From assembly GCF_002217355.1 (NCBI RefSeq), contig NZ_MUHA01000015.1:1-64000 (forward strand): a DNA stretch of 64,000 nucleotides, read 5' to 3'. The position numbers and the translations under genes are program-made. This document shows positions 38,974 to 45,755 of this stretch, piece by piece. The stretch is from Flavobacterium oncorhynchi (lineage in GTDB: Bacteria; Bacteroidota; Bacteroidia; Flavobacteriales; Flavobacteriaceae). The notes under the pieces are model-generated. The model saw only the letters and a list, made by a program, of their open reading frames with translations, was not told where the DNA came from and did not search any database. How positions within the stretch are numbered: position 1 is the first letter of the stretch; every line of letters begins with the position of its first letter.

Positions 38974-39690
38974 TTAAAGATTGATTTTTTCAAAGAAAGC
39001 ATTCTTGTAGCTTTCACTTATAGGAATCCGTTTATCGCTAATCAAAACTTTATTTTTTTGTATCGATTTCACATGTTTTATATTAATGATATAAGATCTG
39101 TGAATTCTAGAGAACCCTTTGCTTGAAAGTAAATTTTCAAGTTTTATTAAGCTGATTAATGTTAGTGTATATTTATTATCGGTTGTATAGATTTTTACAT
39201 AATCCTTTAAACCTTCGATGAATAAGATATCAGCAAAATTCATTTTAACATTTTCGTATTCAGCTCTTACAAACATAAAATCCTGTTCGAGCTCTGGAGC
39301 AAGTGTATTTTCAGCAATTGAAGAAACAGCCGCCGTAGGATTAACAATTTGCTGTGCGCGTACTACCGATTTTAGAAAACGATGAAAGGGAATTGGTTTT
39401 ACTAAATAATCGACAGCACCAAGATTAAACCCTTCGACAGCATAATCAGAATAGGCAGTTGTAAAAATTACAAGTGGTTTTTTCTCGATCGTATTTAAAA
39501 AATCTATCCCTGAAAAATGCGGCATTTGAATGTCTAAAAAAATCAAATCAACATTATTTTGATTGATAAATGAAACGGCATCAATAGCATTATTAAAAGT
39601 ACTGATCAATTCAAGTGAATCGACTTTTTGTACAAAATCTTCCAGTAATTCAACAGCTAATGGTTCGTCATCTATAATTACACATTTCAT
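38974..39690 (-). CDS. LytTR family response regulator
   Basis: A 238-residue regulator with an N-terminal receiver domain (acidic pocket D7/D8, phospho-acceptor D53 in LIFLDIQMP, conserved Thr and Lys in TTAYSDYA and VKPI) and a C-terminal LytTR DNA-binding domain (about 135-235, with KDYVKIYT and FSRIHRSYIIN). The ATG at 39690 gives the canonical MKCVIIDDEPLA start. The matching LytS-type kinase is two genes upstream with a dioxygenase gene in between. It has its own -7 box. Confidence 0.95.
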   Translation of the reverse strand: MKCVIIDDEPLAVELLEDFVQKVDSLELISTFNNAIDAVSFINQNNVDLIFLDIQMPHFSGIDFLNTIEKKPLVIFTTAYSDYAVEGFNLGAVDYLVKPIPFHRFLKSVVRAQQIVNPTAAVSSIAENTLAPELEQDFMFVRAEYENVKMNFADILFIEGLKDYVKIYTTDNKYTLTLISLIKLENLLSSKGFSRIHRSYIINIKHVKSIQKNKVLISDKRIPISESYKNAFFEKINL

Positions 39691-39723
39691 CTGCAGGAGT
39701 TTAAATTTATTCGGTTTGGAGCT

Positions 39724-39731
39724 CAAAAGTA
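39724..39731 (-). promoter_or_regulatory. -7 box of the LytTR regulator gene
   Basis: On the minus strand this reads TACTTTTG, matching TAnnTTTG, 33 bp upstream of the ATG, within the gap after the dioxygenase stop. Confidence 0.5.
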
Positions 39732-39788
39732 GTTTTAAACCAGTGAATTAAGTTTTAAAATTATCATAAAATACTGGTTTGATTTTAA

Positions 39789-40499
39789 TTACCCATTTAC
39801 AGTAATTGTTTTGGTCAAAGTATAACCATCAGTCAAATTACCTGTTAAAACTGCCAGTTCGCTGGCAAGACTGTCTGCAAAAACATTATCTCTAGTATTA
39901 GAAGTATCAGCTTGTCCGTGAGCAGCATAATTAGTACTTGAGTAAACAGTACTCGAAGTGCTTTCTGGGAAAGCAATTTGAGTAACTAATAATGAAGATC
40001 CGCTGCTTGACAAAACTTCAACATGTACATGAGGAGCTCTGCCTTGGTACCATCCTGGATAGATAGAAATAAATGAAACTTCTCCTTTAGCATTTGTTGT
40101 TTGTCTTCCTCTTAAAAAATGAACAGAAGTATAATCTGTCTGCTGCATTTGAGTTCCGCCGTATTCAGAATAATTGCCGTCTTTGTCGCAATGCCATACA
40201 TCAACTAAAACATTCGATAGAGGCAGGCAGTTATTGTTTTTATTTTCAATAATTAAATTGATTAATAGGGCAACTCCAACTCGGTCCGATTTTATATTTT
40301 CTAAAACTAATTGACTTGGTGTTTTGATAGGAAAAGGACCTTTAGTTTCAGATGGTGAAACTGTGCAGCTTCCGTTACCAGATAAGTCTGTGCCAGAATC
40401 ATCATTATCACTTTTAGAGCACGATTCTAATATTTTTGAAGCACCAGCCAAAGCTGTGATGCCCAAAAGACCATTTCGGATGAATTTTTTTCTGTCCAT
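39789..40499 (-). CDS. Exported intradiol ring-cleavage dioxygenase-like lipoprotein
   Basis: A 236-residue protein with an N-terminal export signal (MDRKKFIRNGLLGITALAGA, Tat-like though with RKK rather than RR) and a probable lipobox cysteine at C27. The body is the intradiol dioxygenase beta-sandwich: NVLVDVWHCDKDGNYSEYGG, then SIYPGWYQGRAPHVHVEV. The four Fe(III) ligands expected from protocatechuate dioxygenase are all present as Y110, Y151, H157 and H159. The loop between the second Tyr and first His is shorter (6 rather than 13 residues). It lies between a histidine kinase (11-bp gap) and its regulator. The substrate is unknown. Confidence 0.88.
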   Translation of the reverse strand: MDRKKFIRNGLLGITALAGASKILESCSKSDNDDSGTDLSGNGSCTVSPSETKGPFPIKTPSQLVLENIKSDRVGVALLINLIIENKNNNCLPLSNVLVDVWHCDKDGNYSEYGGTQMQQTDYTSVHFLRGRQTTNAKGEVSFISIYPGWYQGRAPHVHVEVLSSSGSSLLVTQIAFPESTSSTVYSSTNYAAHGQADTSNTRDNVFADSLASELAVLTGNLTDGYTLTKTITVNG

Positions 40500-40510
40500 A
40501 ATTTCAAGGT

Positions 40511-41620
40511 TTAATTTACAGTAGTTTTAATTTCATCTAATTTTAGATTTAAATGCACGCGGTAAAATTGGCTGTCTTGGTTTATAGTTAGTTCATGAGC
40601 ATTTGGGTAAAGTAAATCCAGTCTGTTTTGGATATTTACTAGTCCAATACCTGAATTTTCAGGGTCTTTTATATAGTTTTCAATTGTATTTTCAATCCAA
40701 AAATCAAGGTTGTTTTCTGAAATGAAAATTTTAATTTTGATATGTGCTGCACCTTTATAATCTGTTCCGTACTTAAAGGCATTCTCAACAAATGATATCA
40801 GCAGTAAAGGTTCAATAAACTTATTTTTAGTGTCGCCATGAACATTAATTACAATATCTTCAATGTTGTTAAGTCTTAGTTTTTGCAGTTCAATATAATT
40901 CTGAATATAATTTATTTCCTTTTCTAAAGCTACCGTTTTATTATCTGTTTCGTACAGCATATAACGCATTAACTCAGATAATGTGACGATGGCATCAGGG
41001 ACCAAATCAGATTTTTTATGTGCTAGAGAATAAATACTGTTTAGAGAATTGAATAAAAAATGCGGATTGGTTTGTTTGCGCAAATAAGTCAATTCCGTAT
41101 TTGTTCGATGCGTTTCGGCAATTAGTTTGTTTTGTTCGTTGCTGTAAAACTCTGTCAGGGTTCTAATAATTGCACTTATGGTAAGAATTAAAATATAGAA
41201 AAAGGAAGGGCCGATTTTAAAGAAAAGCGGACGTTTCATTTCGATTTTTAAGTTGTCGGTTTTTCGTAAAAGTACAGTTTCATTTGGCATGAAATGTGGG
41301 CGGGCAATATTTGAAGGAGGTAAATGTCTGAATTCAGGAATAAAATAATTAATTCTGATGATCATAAAAGCAGCAATAATTATAAATGCAAATAAAAAAT
41401 ACTGCCAGTACTTTTTTTGTAAAAGAAGGGACGGAACCATGTAATAATAGTTGAGGTAAAACAACATTATTCCTGATGCCCACTGAACATAAAAATCATT
41501 ATTGATCCTAAACGGACTTTCATAAAACTGAATTAAAGAAGTCAGAATGAAGAAAACCCATATAATACAATGGAATAGAATTTTATTTGAGTTAGTATTT
41601 TTGATGGCTCCGATTTTCAT
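40511..41620 (-). CDS. LytS/His_kinase family sensor histidine kinase
   Basis: A 369-residue membrane sensor with four N-terminal helices (about 14-32, 46-64, 73-94 and 138-156), a short extracytoplasmic loop, then the His_kinase domain with phospho-acceptor H187 in RKQTNPHFLFNSLNSIYSLA and an ATPase domain with FVENAFKYG and GIGLVNIQNRLDLLYP. The kinase type pairs with LytTR regulators, and one follows two genes downstream. Its start codon directly abuts the DUF4907 stop codon, so the genes are coupled. Confidence 0.94.
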   Translation of the reverse strand: MKIGAIKNTNSNKILFHCIIWVFFILTSLIQFYESPFRINNDFYVQWASGIMLFYLNYYYMVPSLLLQKKYWQYFLFAFIIIAAFMIIRINYFIPEFRHLPPSNIARPHFMPNETVLLRKTDNLKIEMKRPLFFKIGPSFFYILILTISAIIRTLTEFYSNEQNKLIAETHRTNTELTYLRKQTNPHFLFNSLNSIYSLAHKKSDLVPDAIVTLSELMRYMLYETDNKTVALEKEINYIQNYIELQKLRLNNIEDIVINVHGDTKNKFIEPLLLISFVENAFKYGTDYKGAAHIKIKIFISENNLDFWIENTIENYIKDPENSGIGLVNIQNRLDLLYPNAHELTINQDSQFYRVHLNLKLDEIKTTVN

Positions 41621-41950
41621 TTATAATTTTATTTTTAATAAAATTAATTCATTTTTGTTTACTGTTGGTGATAAGTTTTGGCTGAGTTTTTCAATCACTA
41701 AATGAGCAGTTTTTAATGCATCATCTTCTGTCGAAAAACTTTTGTTGTCACTTATTACGGGTATAATCGATTGTTTAATAATGATTTTGTCTTTATACAA
41801 AATCGAGTATCCCCAGCCAGAAGTGGTTTGAAAAGTTTCTGTTCTATAGGCCTCTTTTTTTTCACAAGAAACCATTTGTAAAACAAGACACAAAAGCAAT
41901 AAATTCTTCTGGATGTTACTCCAGAAGAATTGTTTAGTATTAATTATCAT
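41621..41950 (-). CDS. DUF4907 domain lipoprotein
   Basis: A protein of about 109 residues with a lipoprotein-type signal (NLLLLCLVLQMVSC) and a compact domain GWGYSILYKDKIIIKQSIIPVISDNKSF, then DALKTAHLVIEKL, matching DUF4907, a small family of unknown function often found beside kelch lipoproteins. ATG codons at 41950 and 41956 both overlap the end of the kelch gene; the longer frame from 42010 runs deep into that gene and is unlikely. Its stop directly touches the kinase start. Inferred role: envelope component acting with the kelch protein and sensor. Confidence 0.8.
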   Translation of the reverse strand: MIINTKQFFWSNIQKNLLLLCLVLQMVSCEKKEAYRTETFQTTSGWGYSILYKDKIIIKQSIIPVISDNKSFSTEDDALKTAHLVIEKLSQNLSPTVNKNELILLKIKL

Positions 41951-42947
41951 TGTCATTTTGTTCCTCCAAAGGTTTAAATTCCCAAGCATCATCAAAATAA
42001 GAAGAACCAATTCTTCCTAACATATAAAAACCGCGATTATTTATAGTAAAACCTACAGCATCAGTTCTTGTTGCGCCTTCAAGCGGAGTTCTTTCAACCC
42101 AAAGATCAGTAGTTGGGTTGTACTCCCAAATTGTTTTTATATTTTCGCCTCCAACTACGTATCCTAGTCCATTCATGCTAAAACTTGATGCATTGGCACG
42201 TACAATTGCATATTCGTCATTATACGAATAATCATCAGTGGTATTTTTATCAATATCTCTTTTTCTTGTCCAAGTATCAGTTGCAGGGTCAAATTCCCAA
42301 AAATCTCCCTGGTAAACACTATTATTAATTCCTGTAGCCAGATACGCTTTATCAGCAATTACAAATACAGTTGCATTGCGTCTTTTATTACCGCTAAAAC
42401 CGTTTACAAGTGTCCAGCTGTTTGCTTGATCATCATATTGATAGAAATCTTTTAGATAGTTTCCATCATAACCAGTTCCAAAATAAGCTTTTCCTCCAGC
42501 CTGAAAACCTACAGCAGCATAACGAGCTGTTCCAGCAAAATCTGTTTTTTGAGTCCAGCTGTTGTTGGAAGGATCGTATTGATAAAAATCCTTCAGTTTA
42601 TTAGTTCCGTCATAACCAAGTCCAATGTAACCTTTATTGTTTAATGCAAAGCTAGATGCAGAACTTCTTCCTACACCAATAAAGTCTGCTTTTTGCTCCC
42701 AATAGTCTCCATTTGAGTTGTAAGCCCATAAATCTTTCAAGTATACATCGCCGGTATAACCAGCAGCAACATAAGCATAATCACCAATTACAAAACTTGT
42801 GGCGCTAGACCTTGCCGGCCCATCAAAAGCTGATTTCTTTACCCAGTTTCCCATTAATTCATCATCCTCGTTGTCATTGCTGCAGCTTATAAAGAAGAGA
42901 CTAGAAAGTAATGAAGCGAATAATATTCCTTTTTTAAAATTATTCAT
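41940..42947 (-). CDS. Kelch-repeat lipoprotein
   Basis: A 335-residue lipoprotein (MNNFKKGILFASLLSSLFFISC, lipobox C22) with an acidic NDNEDDE linker and then about six kelch repeats, each of the form RSSATSFVIGDYAYVAAGY followed by a Trp-containing strand, forming a predicted beta-propeller. It is the first gene of a minus-strand operon with DUF4907, a LytS-type kinase and a secreted dioxygenase. Kelch propellers bind ligands or proteins, so it may be an extracytoplasmic sensor or scaffold for the kinase; this is inference. Confidence 0.9.
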   Translation of the reverse strand: MNNFKKGILFASLLSSLFFISCSNDNEDDELMGNWVKKSAFDGPARSSATSFVIGDYAYVAAGYTGDVYLKDLWAYNSNGDYWEQKADFIGVGRSSASSFALNNKGYIGLGYDGTNKLKDFYQYDPSNNSWTQKTDFAGTARYAAVGFQAGGKAYFGTGYDGNYLKDFYQYDDQANSWTLVNGFSGNKRRNATVFVIADKAYLATGINNSVYQGDFWEFDPATDTWTRKRDIDKNTTDDYSYNDEYAIVRANASSFSMNGLGYVVGGENIKTIWEYNPTTDLWVERTPLEGATRTDAVGFTINNRGFYMLGRIGSSYFDDAWEFKPLEEQNDNDN

Positions 42948-42973
42948 AGTGTATTAAAATTTATTTATTGGTT

Positions 42974-42981
42974 CAAAAGTA
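42974..42981 (-). promoter_or_regulatory. -7 box of the kelch/kinase operon
   Basis: On the minus strand this reads TACTTTTG, matching TAnnTTTG, 26 bp upstream of the kelch gene ATG. The 240-bp gap between the divergent genes holds no other recognised feature apart from the box at 43165. Confidence 0.5.
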
Positions 42982-43164
42982 GGTTGGAGAAGGATTTAAA
43001 AAAAAGAAGATATATGTATTGCCCATTTTGATAGACTAAATCAGACTTTTTAAAGGCGAATGAGTTATTGATGTTACTTTATCTATTGTAGATGCTTTTT
43101 TGCCTTTTATAGAACAAAAATGTAAGACTGTATATGTTATGATGCCGTCTAAACCACGCCATTA

Positions 43165-43172
43165 TATATTTG
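43165..43172 (+). promoter_or_regulatory. -7 box of the DUF4270 gene
   Basis: TATATTTG matches TAnnTTTG, 15 bp before the ATG at 43188. The alternative upstream start at 43170 lies inside this box and is rejected. Confidence 0.6.
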
Positions 43173-43187
43173 CGCAAAAAATTGATT

Positions 43188-44516
43188 ATGCGTAAGTTAT
43201 TGTTTGTGTTGTTTGTTGCTTTTACATTATTTTCATGCGGAACAGATACTGATGCAGGAGAGTTTGTAGTTGGATCTGATTATTTGGCGTTGAACAATAA
43301 GGTTGTTATGATTGATACTGTAACGGTCGAAATGTCTACCATAAATTTTGATTCGCTGGTGACTTCAAACCAAAGCCGAATCCTGGTTGGAAATTACGAT
43401 GATCCTATTTTTGGTAAGGTAAAATCGAGTAGTTATTTTCAGTTGTCATCAAGTAATTATGCTTTAAATAATGAAGGTTCCGATACAGAGAATGTTAATT
43501 ATGTTTTTGATTCCATTTCTATGGTGTTAAAGTATGATAACTATTTTTATGGCGATACAACTAAAATTCAAACATTTAATATTCATCGCTTAACGCAAAA
43601 AGTAAAACCAAATACTGATTCTGGAAGTTTTTATAATAATTCGAGTTTGAGTTACGATGAGGAAAGTTTGGGAACATTTTCATACAAGCCGCGCCCAGTT
43701 GGAAAAGATTCGATTAATATAAAAATGAGTAATGTATTTGGAGAAGCTCTTTTTCAAAAAATAAAGAAAAGAGATATTACAGATTTTGACTCTTTTACAG
43801 AGTATCTAAAAGGGCTTGTAATTGTACCATCATCGTCTAACTCGTCAAGTGTTATTGGGTTTAATACTTCCAAGAGTTTAGTGCGTTTGTATTACTCCAA
43901 ATATCAAGCGGGTGTTGATGAGGTTCCTTTTGTGATCGATTTTTCTATTTTAGATGCTACAAAGCAGTTTAATTCTATTTCATTAGATAAAACAGGAACG
44001 TTAATTCAAAATCTGCCTATATCGAGCAGTAAACTTTCGAGCACAGCGACTAACGGACAGGGATTTATTCAGTCTGGAACAGGAGTGGCTTGTCGTATCG
44101 ATTTTCCAAACTTAAGACAGTTGAAATATATTTCAGATAACGGCGCTATTGTCGATGCTCAATTGATTTTAAAACCAGTTAATAATTCTTATTCTGAAAA
44201 ATACCCACTTGCAGATTCCTTAAAAATATATGTAGGCGACAATTTAAATAGAATAAGCAGTTCGTTATTGAATTCTGCTGGAGCAGCAGTTTATGGTATT
44301 TTGAATAAGAAAAGCGATGAGTTCAACGAAAACATCGGATATACTATTCCGTTGGGTAATTTTTTACAAAAGGAAATGCTTCGAGCTTCTGATTCTAAAT
44401 CTTCTTTGATCCTTACGCTTCCTGGTATTTCTAAAACCGTAGATCGAATTGTTTTAGGGGATCAAAAGCATTTAAACAATAAAATTCAACTAAAAATATA
44501 TTACATCTCTTATTAA
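43188..44516 (+). CDS. DUF4270 family lipoprotein
   Basis: A 442-residue lipoprotein (MRKLLFVLFVAFTLFSC, lipobox C17) of the DUF4270 family, recognisable by the N-terminal pattern VGSDYLALNNKVVMIDTVTVEMSTINFDSLVTS and the following SRILVGNYDDPIFG. The family is widespread in Bacteroidota and without known function. The stop codon is followed immediately by the ATG of an outer-membrane protein gene, so the two are translated together and probably act together in the outer membrane. Confidence 0.88.
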   Translation: MRKLLFVLFVAFTLFSCGTDTDAGEFVVGSDYLALNNKVVMIDTVTVEMSTINFDSLVTSNQSRILVGNYDDPIFGKVKSSSYFQLSSSNYALNNEGSDTENVNYVFDSISMVLKYDNYFYGDTTKIQTFNIHRLTQKVKPNTDSGSFYNNSSLSYDEESLGTFSYKPRPVGKDSINIKMSNVFGEALFQKIKKRDITDFDSFTEYLKGLVIVPSSSNSSSVIGFNTSKSLVRLYYSKYQAGVDEVPFVIDFSILDATKQFNSISLDKTGTLIQNLPISSSKLSSTATNGQGFIQSGTGVACRIDFPNLRQLKYISDNGAIVDAQLILKPVNNSYSEKYPLADSLKIYVGDNLNRISSSLLNSAGAAVYGILNKKSDEFNENIGYTIPLGNFLQKEMLRASDSKSSLILTLPGISKTVDRIVLGDQKHLNNKIQLKIYYISY

Positions 44517-45755
44517 ATGAAAAATAAAATAGTTTTTATTTACTGCGCCATTTTAATATCGTTTGCATCATTTTCTCAAAGTATTTCAAGTTCGCCGTAT
44601 TCATTGTATGGAGTAGGCAGTTTGTATGATGCTGATTTTGGATTGCTTCCTTCAATTGGATCAGCGGGAATTGCACTGCCATCAGATAGCTTTATTAATA
44701 ATCTTAATCCAGCTTCATTAGGTTCACTTCCATTAAATCATTTTATGTTTGATGTTGGTGGTAAAGCTATTGCGACAACCTATCAAAACAATTCAAAAAA
44801 GGAGAATCGTAACAATTTTCAATTTTCTCATATTGCTTTTGCTTTTCCAGTTACTAAAAATTCTGGTTTTAGTGTTGCGTTACGTCCGTATTCTAGCTCG
44901 GCATTTAAAATTTCTAATCTTATCCTGCCAATCTCAGATAGTCAGGAATCTTATAGTTTATCAGCAACAGGTTCAGGAGGATTAAATAATTTTGATTTTT
45001 CTTATGGGTATCGATTTGGTAAAAAACTTACGGTAGGAGCGTCTGCAGCTTTGTTATTTGGAAACACTGTTGATGACAGAGTTTTTACAATTCTCAATTC
45101 AATCACTACTATACATAAAAAAACAGATTATAACGGACTTCGTGCAACGTTAGGAACTCAGTATAAAATTGATTCTACGTTTACTATTGGTGCAACAGTT
45201 AAATTACCGGCACAAATTAAAGGTTCAAAAGTACAGTCAGTTGAGTCGATCAATGATGAGGTGGTGAGCGATATTCAACCTGAAACAGTTTCTGATGTAG
45301 ACGATTATTATATGCCTTTAGAAATTGGAATTGGTATTAGTAAACGATTCAAAAAAGTCTTGAATATGACTTTTGATTATGAAAAAAGTTTATGGAATGA
45401 TACGAAACAATCTGGTTTCTATGGTGATTATGTAAATCAAGACAGATTTGCGTTAGGTTTTACTTATTTTAACGAAAAACGAAATTACAGAAAATATTGG
45501 GACAGGGTCAAATATTCTGCAGGTGCAAATTTTGATACGGGATATCTTGAAATAGACGGAAAAAGAATCAACAATGCTTCAATTTCAATTGGAGTTAATC
45601 TGCCTATCGAAAATACTTTTTCGGCCTTAAATATTTCATATTCGTACGGGCAAAAAGGAAGTATTTCAAACAATTTAATCAAAGAAAATTATCATAAATT
45701 GTCTGTAAACTTATCTTTAGATGGTATTTGGTTTGTTAAGAGAAAAATAGAATAA
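44517..45755 (+). CDS. Outer-membrane beta-barrel protein (FadL/PorV-like outline)
   Basis: A 412-residue exported protein (signal peptide ending SFASFSQS) with a Ser/Gly-rich N-terminus (SPYSLYGVGSLYD, then NNLNPASLGSLP, recalling the N-P-A motif of FadL/PorV-type barrels) and regularly alternating beta-strands to the C-terminal strand DGIWFVKRKIE. No specific substrate can be named. The start directly follows the DUF4270 stop (TAAATG), and the gene is convergent with murI (2-bp gap). Confidence 0.8.
   Translation: MKNKIVFIYCAILISFASFSQSISSSPYSLYGVGSLYDADFGLLPSIGSAGIALPSDSFINNLNPASLGSLPLNHFMFDVGGKAIATTYQNNSKKENRNNFQFSHIAFAFPVTKNSGFSVALRPYSSSAFKISNLILPISDSQESYSLSATGSGGLNNFDFSYGYRFGKKLTVGASAALLFGNTVDDRVFTILNSITTIHKKTDYNGLRATLGTQYKIDSTFTIGATVKLPAQIKGSKVQSVESINDEVVSDIQPETVSDVDDYYMPLEIGIGISKRFKKVLNMTFDYEKSLWNDTKQSGFYGDYVNQDRFALGFTYFNEKRNYRKYWDRVKYSAGANFDTGYLEIDGKRINNASISIGVNLPIENTFSALNISYSYGQKGSISNNLIKENYHKLSVNLSLDGIWFVKRKIE

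Follow-up and report, generated by a model that had tools for sequence, protein, structure and literature searches.

The window analysed here, a 64,000-nucleotide stretch of Flavobacterium oncorhynchi contig NZ_MUHA01000015.1, contains a locus of five genes on the minus strand and, transcribed away from them, a pair of genes on the plus strand. The features are as follows.

38974..39690, minus strand: LytTR response regulator, with receiver and LytTR DNA-binding domains (Response_reg 76 bits, LytTR 69 bits)
39724..39731, minus strand: -7 box TACTTTTG before the LytTR gene, read from the sequence
39738..39779, minus strand: inverted repeat AACCAGT-N28-ACTGGTT before the LytTR gene, a pattern found once in its own genome
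39789..40499, minus strand: exported intradiol ring-cleavage dioxygenase (Dioxygenase_C, PF00775, 41.4 bits against a cut-off of 27.3)
40511..41620, minus strand: LytS-type histidine kinase (His_kinase, PF06580, 87 bits, above cut-off)
41621..41953, minus strand: DUF4907 protein with an N-terminal anchor (PF16250, 80 bits, above cut-off)
41940..42947, minus strand: kelch-repeat lipoprotein (Pfam Kelch_1, 89 bits, above cut-off)
42974..43014, minus strand: candidate promoter element TATATCTT-N25-TACTTTTG of the kelch operon
43131..43172, plus strand: candidate element TATATGTT-N26-TATATTTG of the BamH-like/BamG-like unit
43188..44516, plus strand: DUF4270 lipoprotein, a putative BamH-like paralogue (PF14092 and predicted fold)
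44517..45755, plus strand: BamG-like outer-membrane protein, a paralogue (sequence match to 9n2d_B)

An earlier note had read the minus strand as kelch lipoprotein, DUF4907 protein, LytS, exported intradiol dioxygenase and LytTR, and all five genes lie where it placed them. The DUF4907 and kelch genes share a 14-base overlap, LytS abuts DUF4907, and the dioxygenase follows LytS after 11 bases. The divergent BamG- and BamH-like neighbours of the kelch operon had been overlooked.

The dioxygenase is a member of PF00775 in which Pfam found no further domain, and it reached none of the named catechol or protocatechuate dioxygenase equivalogs of NCBIfam (best TIGR02423, 34.2 against 126.25 bits). 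Among solved proteins, the mite protein Tetur07g02040 is nearest to it in sequence, and a published study reports that this protein cleaves catechol in vitro (PMC9167512). Alignment with this protein bore out the numbering of the four iron ligands described earlier as intact (Y110, Y151, H157 and H159), and these two tyrosines and two histidines are complete in 129/129 window-like dioxygenases. As for the export or lipoprotein signal that had been proposed, the N-terminal Cys is present, but the lipobox of the window protein is unusual and non-canonical (ILESC-SKSDNDDS). A strict lipobox pattern is satisfied by 42 of 98 relatives, and a Cys aligns to Cys27 of the window protein in 111 of 129. 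This N-terminal Cys, the acidic stretch that follows and the retained Cys45 and Cys91 would be consistent with a location in the envelope. Pairwise dN/dS lay between 0.03 and 0.09 in six of seven comparisons, with dS above 1 in five of these six and the seventh saturated, values that point to strong purifying selection on the enzyme.

The sensing pair combines a kinase with a His_kinase domain bearing H and N motifs and a regulator with receiver and LytTR domains. LytS carries the motifs NPHFLFN, ENAFK and GIGLVN and has N-terminal membrane segments; by hydropathy its extracytoplasmic loop is short (about residues 95-133), and Pfam found no separate sensor domain. The regulator contains the motifs DDE, LDIQMP and KP, and its best NCBIfam score, to BtsR, is far below the cut-off (132.9 against 246). 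Its gene most likely starts at ATG 39690 (MKCVIIDDEPLA): in 19 of the 24 Flavobacterium loci compared, the equivalent codon begins the longest frame. The TTG at 39726 falls within the -7 box.

That LytTR has a -7 box of its own was correctly noted before; the same sequence also precedes kelch (42981-42974). Of the 24 gaps before LytTR compared in Flavobacterium, 15 contain a TAnnTTTG box; the short gaps do not. With this promoter-like box of its own, LytTR may be uncoupled from the genes upstream. The inverted repeat in this gap was considered as a candidate regulator site; its left arm decays and is not kept in all relatives. As for the two divergent units, the TATATSTT element was drawn from the window itself; finding it there therefore proves nothing, and only its recurrence in relatives carries weight. 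In a set of 76 loci that counts some genomes twice, the kelch-operon element found a match in 66 and the BamH-like/BamG-like one in 61, with similar elements in both units in 56 loci; L081, L128 and L244 lack it. The pattern is not rare, with 3 places in the genome against 4 for a reversed control.

In the kelch protein, the lipobox Cys is followed by an acidic stretch (C-SNDNEDDE). Judged by sequence, these residues resemble the surface export signal of Bacteroidota lipoproteins, as described in PMC5080379. Comparisons of the kelch protein had known kelch propellers in their top 60 matches, such as designed proteins, KLHL and Keap1, an uninformative result. DUF4907 is predicted to be a small beta-beta-beta-alpha domain (AlphaFold2 mean pLDDT 85.5) with a lipobox-like VSC at its N-terminal anchor; the lipobox pattern is missing from 3 of 71 genus-type and 29 of 68 class sequences. 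Foldseek gave no match to this fold under E 0.001, and its profile had no convincing match to PDB sequences (best E 0.24). VIA returned weak matches, the best being MmoD (Z 5.6), with HVO_2922, a DUF1508 protein, at Z 5.1; a DUF1508/YegP-like fold is a tentative candidate for DUF4907.

The BamG-like protein is homologous to chain 9n2d_B, 'Bam G' (E 3.9e-38, residues 4-411); the names BamG and BamH are taken from PDB entries with release dates in 2025. The window DUF4270 protein had no sequence match to BamH among PDB sequences, and that of L082 had no convincing one (best E 0.18). The predicted fold of the window DUF4270 protein matched the BAM chains 9hjm_G (Z 18.8, 365 residues aligned, rmsd 6.7), 9n2d_C (Z 17.5, 397 aligned, rmsd 8.4) and 9his_G (Z 16.6, 386 aligned, rmsd 7.5), the next row falling to Z 10.0. 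The protein thus appears to share the BamH fold, albeit with high rmsd and from a model of low confidence (mean pLDDT 63). The window pair is not orthologous to canonical BamG and BamH, which are other genes of the same genome, located on two different contigs and matching the solved F. johnsoniae chains at E 1.2e-221 (BamG) and E 2.2e-240 (BamH). The canonical BamG is 29% identical to the window BamG-like protein.

Gene-neighbourhood conservation had been set beforehand as a check on the proposed grouping, and the adverse outcome, a lack of co-occurrence elsewhere, did not appear. Among 49 further dioxygenase loci of the Flavobacterium type, 48 have the LytS-dioxygenase-LytTR order with kelch, which rules out that the five genes are neighbours by chance; the remaining locus runs into a contig edge. 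All 49 loci (46 of the records are Flavobacterium) have DUF4907 by tblastn. In 26 other Flavobacterium loci gathered through DUF4907, at least 4 of which are common to the set of 49, the kelch gene adjoins DUF4907 in every case, and LytS and LytTR are present in 24. The dioxygenase is found in 4 and absent from 22, one of the 22 being truncated by a contig end before LytS. The dioxygenase is thus an optional, dispensable addition to the locus. Together with its other positions in other genera, this speaks against the weight that the earlier word 'split' would give to the enclosure of the enzyme by the two-component genes. Comparison of remnant scores with shuffle maxima was clear for L067 (88 against 31) and marginal for L069 (31 against 28), and scores in L056, L057, L058, L060 and L068 were not above shuffles; a single remnant, that of L067, is therefore claimed.

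Outside the genus, we used 69 of 82 DUF4907 match rows, of which L090 and L113 had no DUF4907 call (n = 67). Kelch adjoins DUF4907 in 38 of these 67 class loci. The BamG/BamH-like pair lies beside kelch-DUF4907 in 7 of them and in 24 of the 26 genus loci. Counting dioxygenases at any location, 16 of the 27 genomes with DUF4907 have one, compared with 1 among 123 other genomes; genus and genome size both confound this difference, and it was given little weight. Among the 27 DUF4907 genomes sampled, 5 have a copy in the kelch locus and 11 have one elsewhere, and none has both (p 0.054), which is at most suggestive of mutual exclusion.

The proposed tie between the exported dioxygenase and a sensing pair found support in a class sample drawn from 115 PF00775 rows. 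Of the rows scoring above the cut-off, 63 were weaker and 46 stronger: 60 regions took in 61 of the former (all but the window's own and one other), and 20 regions took in 20 of the latter. The 6 rows under the cut-off were left aside. After 12 of the 80 regions without a window-type profile match had been dropped, 30 window-like relatives, 19 weak-score rows and 19 higher-scoring controls remained. Nine of the 30 window-like relatives, a group defined by a 140-bit line set after seeing the neighbourhoods, had a same-strand LytTR gene no more than three genes away, against 35 of 660 background genes (binomial p 1.7e-5). All nine also have LytS within three genes; they fall within six family codes and are therefore not nine independent events. 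The controls had LytTR nearby in 0/19 cases on the same strand (1/19 on either), and the weak-score group in 4/19 (8/19 on either). Several of the higher-scoring controls also look exported.

Within the kelch/DUF4270 locus, the dioxygenase occupies four positions: between LytS and LytTR in Flavobacterium, between kelch and DUF4907 in L244, before kelch in L231 (Flaviramulus), and after the BamG-like gene in L241, a 3.3-kb contig showing no kelch gene. A single origin of the dioxygenase in this locus was rejected (p-AU 0.00079; 14 rows, 11 of Flavobacterium type, labelled by gene context before the tree was built), and supported branches of the dioxygenase tree force at least three changes of context label. 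By this phylogenetic test, the enzyme entered the locus more than once. Stand-alone dioxygenases elsewhere lie behind a different LytS-LytTR clade (20 rows, support 96/85), with the genome's other 15 LytS proteins all outside it, and the tie of the dioxygenase to LytS/LytTR looks real. Kelch-locus LytS proteins fall in several parts of the LytS tree, their label needing five changes. A pirin-type neighbour was detected with our own profile in 22 of 44 dioxygenase loci outside the Flavobacterium kelch type, and Pfam confirmed Pirin_C_2 in both proteins scanned; none was found by Pfam among ten window neighbours. Pirins can act as quercetinases, and this neighbour suggests flavonoid or catechol chemistry for the related dioxygenases.

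The reading we prefer, although we put it at about an even chance, is that LytS/LytTR control a cell-surface locus, which has repeatedly gained a catechol-cleaving enzyme. Its older core would be the second BamG/BamH-like pair, an outer-membrane protein with a surface lipoprotein, transcribed in Flavobacterium away from kelch and DUF4907, with LytS and LytTR at the end of the kelch operon. The absence of the dioxygenase from 22 of 26 Flavobacterium loci implies that this core works without it. The exported enzyme has joined this locus more than once, and a second LytS/LytTR clade elsewhere. Most likely it is an effector at the surface, opening catechol-type rings outside the cell (candidate substrates are plant phenolics and humic-type or siderophore-like catechols), and it would be produced in response to envelope or aromatic stress sensed by LytS. 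More tentatively, the old pair with kelch and DUF4907, in some families beside a dedicated LytS/LytTR, may form an alternative complex under signal control, for outer-membrane assembly or at the surface, with dioxygenases recruited repeatedly as its enzyme and catechol sensing and cleavage taking place there; we regard this fuller version as possible but doubtful.

The same absence from 22 loci, the loss recorded clearly in L067 and marginally in L069, and the 21 of 30 relatives with no same-strand LytS/LytTR neighbour would also suit a mobile accessory gene that by chance lands in transcribed gaps of this operon, the LytS/LytTR genes and the kelch/BamGH-like core having an unrelated function. 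The separate LytS clade paired with dioxygenases over several families, the LytTR enrichment over both background and higher-scoring PF00775, the repeated entry into one locus and the strong purifying selection speak against such a passenger, which we consider conceivable, if doubtful in its turn. Somewhat less probable is that LytS/LytTR senses the state of the second BamG/BamH-like machine, the role of the dioxygenase being limited to shielding that surface complex from catechols or quinones. The pair's place beside kelch-DUF4907 in genus and class loci and the similar promoter elements on both sides agree with this; however, LytS does not adjoin DUF4907 in 4 of the 7 pair-holding class loci (L082, L083, L088 and L092; in L082 and L083, LytTR or LytS genes lie further off), and membership of the pair in a BAM complex is hypothetical.

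Least probable, and in our view unlikely, is a reading that builds on the earlier note's suggestion of kelch and DUF4907 as extracytoplasmic sensor parts: the two would form the sensor of LytS, and the dioxygenase would make or destroy its ligand, in signal processing rather than detoxification. A sensor partner is plausible, since the LytS loop is short and lacks a Pfam sensor domain. Some LytS-linked DUF4907 proteins, such as that of L226, miss the lipobox pattern, which would be compatible with anchoring in the inner membrane. In 24 of the 26 genus loci kelch and LytS stay side by side in one locus, and kelch-locus LytS is scattered in its tree as if it had joined kelch repeatedly. Against this, same-strand LytS lies within three genes in only 4 of the 67 class DUF4907 loci and not in the other 63, so that a dedicated sensor role for DUF4907, and for kelch with it, is weakly supported. 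Flaviramulus L231 keeps kelch, LytS, LytTR and the dioxygenase with DUF4907 undetectable, and the DUF4907 fold search gave no sensor-domain match.

Our literature searches found, in the library covered, no paper naming DUF4907, none joining LytTR, histidine kinase and kelch in Bacteroidetes, none joining intradiol dioxygenase and LytTR, and none joining any four of kelch, lipoprotein, Bacteroidetes, histidine kinase and LytS. For DUF4270 one paper came up (PMC10434189), in which BT1785-86 stands at 3.6-fold with P 0.437, not significant. If the preferred reading is correct, three subjects so far pursued separately become linked: sensing by LytS/LytTR in Bacteroidota, the cleavage of aromatic rings outside the cell, and the BAM machinery, whose structures were solved recently. 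It would offer testable genes for how Flavobacterium may handle extracellular catechols; it would also give DUF4907 proteins their first context and provide a paralogous BamG/BamH pair to study. The recurrence of an exported dioxygenase with a sensing pair hints at an unstudied cell-surface handling of catechol-type chemicals.

Among known systems, the Bacteroidota BAM (9n2d, 9hjm, 9his) has its canonical pair on two contigs here, whereas the window paralogues are adjacent and divergent from kelch. The LytS/LytTR pair of the window has the His_kinase and LytTR domains of BtsS/BtsR and LytS/LytR, but its LytS differs in having a short loop in which no known sensor domain was found, and exported dioxygenase and kelch genes are linked to it. 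Pirin-type quercetinases (Pirin_C_2) are neighbours of related dioxygenases elsewhere, with none found among the ten window neighbours scanned by Pfam. Spider-mite Tetur07g02040/TuDOG is likewise exported, belongs to PF00775 and has four identical iron ligands, and its cysteines align with Cys45 and Cys91 of the window dioxygenase. A secreted intradiol dioxygenase of Streptomyces reportedly carries a lignin-binding domain. Unlike the mite enzymes and this Streptomyces protein, the window dioxygenase has an N-terminal lipoprotein-like Cys and LytS/LytTR genes alongside.

The window carries the following genes, five of which had been placed correctly by the earlier note, while the divergent pair on the opposite strand had been overlooked there:

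42947-41940, minus strand: kelch lipoprotein, sharing 14 bases with the DUF4907 gene
41953-41621, minus strand: DUF4907 protein, overlapped by the kelch gene
41620-40511, minus strand: LytS-type kinase, abutting the DUF4907 gene
40499-39789, minus strand: intradiol dioxygenase (PF00775), 11 bases after LytS
39690-38974, minus strand: LytTR regulator, 98 bases after the dioxygenase
43188-45755, opposite strand: BamG-like outer-membrane protein and DUF4270 lipoprotein, divergent from the kelch operon

In the window sequence, LytS and LytTR have both kept their catalytic motifs. We conclude that this cluster of genes is genuine, conserved and not a product of chance and, as far as our searches of one open-access library show, that this combination of known families is undescribed.

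Counting the window's own genome, DUF4907 (PF16250) was found in 27 of 150 genomes near it. In all 26 other Flavobacterium loci the DUF4907 gene adjoins a kelch gene, and 24 of them have LytS and LytTR (of the two loci lacking LytS, L066 stops at a contig edge and L080 is a different kind of locus); the dioxygenase is present in four. A genome scan yielded 49 dioxygenase loci of the Flavobacterium type (75-98% identity; 46 titled Flavobacterium), a set that overlaps the previous one by at least those four loci. The neighborhood described in the earlier note proved to be conserved in this set, with the order LytS-dioxygenase-LytTR intact in 48 of the 49 loci, the remaining one being cut off by a contig end, and with DUF4907 present in all of them. 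The dioxygenase gene has also been lost, since the locus L067 retains its first ∼88 bases within a 225-base gap between LytS and LytTR, the remnant of an internal deletion. Given this remnant and the presence of the gene in only 4 of 26 loci, we conclude that the operon is the older element and the dioxygenase an optional one.

Our strongest new result is the link between the dioxygenase and LytS/LytTR. The tie to a sensing pair that had been suggested from the window is now borne out by three lines of evidence, namely, other LytS-LytTR pairs, a family-search sample, and four positions within the kelch/DUF4270 locus. Outside the kelch locus, relatives of the dioxygenase often lie directly behind another LytS-LytTR pair. 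In 44 loci that are not of the Flavobacterium kelch type (sets of 13 and 31), a same-strand LytTR gene was found no more than three genes away in 25 and a LytS gene in 22, these positives including the kelch-type loci L231 and L244. With the exception of those two loci, the neighboring kinases of this set formed a separate clade (20 rows; support, 96/85) that contains none of the genome's 15 other LytS proteins, in a tree whose background consisted of the window's genome and the kelch loci only.

The class sample was drawn by family search and not by neighborhood (PF00775 in 86 of 395 class genomes; 80 regions fetched). Of its 30 window-like dioxygenases, as delimited by a 140-bit line drawn after the neighborhoods had been seen, nine had LytTR and also LytS nearby on the same strand, and 21 had no such same-strand neighbor. 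Compared to the background, in which LytTR was near 35 of 660 genes, this corresponds to a binomial p of 1.7e-5, a value that overstates independence because the nine positives are spread over six family codes. Most genomes of the class have LytTR genes (94 of 99); near higher-scoring PF00775 controls, LytTR was found in 0 of 19 cases on the same strand and in 1 of 19 on either strand.

Within the kelch/DUF4270 locus, a label assigned from gene context prior to tree building, the dioxygenase lies between LytS and LytTR in Flavobacterium, between kelch and DUF4907 in L244, before kelch in L231 (Flaviramulus basaltis), and after a BamG-like gene in L241, whose short contig shows no kelch gene. 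The L244 dioxygenase nests with a Pustulibacterium dioxygenase from another type of locus (97/73). A single group comprising these dioxygenase rows of the kelch/DUF4270 locus was rejected (p-AU, 0.00079); label changes on the dioxygenase tree alone do not separate gain from loss.

Other arrangements were also seen. In L170, L243, L260 and similar loci, a pirin-type gene and the gene of a conserved protein of 166-175 amino acids come after a stand-alone LytS-LytTR-dioxygenase set; two of these conserved proteins were scanned and gave no Pfam match. Small PF00775 proteins of a more distant group (L310, L316, L321, L353 and others), several of which carry a C-[DE]-x-C motif behind the signal, often adjoin LytTR on either strand (8 of 19).

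Pfam finds no sensor domain in LytS, whose extracytoplasmic loop is short, so that the kinase possibly works with a sensor partner. The kelch and DUF4907 proteins, which the earlier note had put forward as possible parts of such a sensor, are weakly supported in this role, as most DUF4907 loci of the class have no LytS nearby (it is present in 4 of 67). The predicted fold of DUF4907 is of good confidence (85.5), and nothing matched it clearly in fold and sequence comparisons. In one family of the class (L086, L089, L091, L093, L096), DUF4907 follows three successive kelch genes, with no LytS or LytTR among the neighbors shown.

The iron ligands of the dioxygenase (Y110, Y151, H157, H159) are indeed intact, being aligned with identical residues of the spider-mite dioxygenase Tetur07g02040, its best solved relative, and kept in 129 of 129 window-like sequences. 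The gene is under purifying selection: of seven pairwise comparisons, six gave a dN/dS of 0.03-0.09, five of them with dS above 1, and one was saturated. The mite enzyme is described as cleaving catechol and 4-methylcatechol, and some secreted family members from bacteria and fungi as able to open procyanidins, caffeic acid and caffeoyl-CoA (PMC9167512). The window dioxygenase scores far under the cut-offs of the catechol and protocatechuate equivalogs compared. By our own profile, a pirin-type gene adjoins the dioxygenase in 22 of the 44 loci that are not of the Flavobacterium kelch type and in 9 of the 30 window-like cases of the class sample; Pfam called Pirin_C_2, the quercetinase C-terminal cupin, in both pirin-type proteins scanned. 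In the kelch protein and the dioxygenase, a Cys is followed by Ser and acidic residues, similar to export signals described for Bacteroidota (PMC5080379). The dioxygenase lipobox is unusual in the window and strict in 42 of 98 relatives, and 111 of 129 sequences have a Cys aligned with Cys27. From these sequence features we infer that both proteins may reside at the cell surface; our statements on mechanism, signal and substrate of the locus are likewise inferences.

Of the unexpected features of the locus, the second BamG/BamH-like pair is the most interesting. Genes related to this pair are found next to kelch-DUF4907 in 24 of the 26 genus loci and in 7 of the 67 class loci. Six of the seven class loci show the divergent layout of the window, L101 running the same way, and in four (L082, L083, L088, L092) LytS is not adjacent to DUF4907. 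Most Flavobacterium relatives have a DUF6268 outer-membrane protein gene between DUF4270 and kelch, which is missing in the window (42948-43170), L181 and L182. In 56 of the 76 loci examined, both divergent units carry TATAT[CG]TT, placed ∼25 bases ahead of a TAnnTTTG box (shuffled sequence gave a mean of 0), with the element absent from L081, L128 and L244; the pattern as such occurs at 3 places in the genome versus 4 for a reversed control.

The BamG-like protein matches 9n2d_B, named 'Bam G' (E 3.9e-38), and the predicted DUF4270 fold (model mean pLDDT, 63) matches BAM chains with Z 16.6-18.8 and rmsd 6.7-8.4, the next row reaching 10.0; 9n2d_C carries the name Bam H. Since the same genome encodes its canonical BamH and BamG elsewhere (E 2.2e-240 and 1.2e-221 to the solved proteins), the pair in the window is paralogous to them. 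DUF4270 relatives in the class score 108-186 bits to the window copy versus ≤28 bits to the canonical BamH of the window's genome, except in L142 (40 versus 38 bits). The BamG-like tree is poorly resolved, with L092 nearer canonical BamG. These comparisons make an old age of this second pair probable rather than certain.
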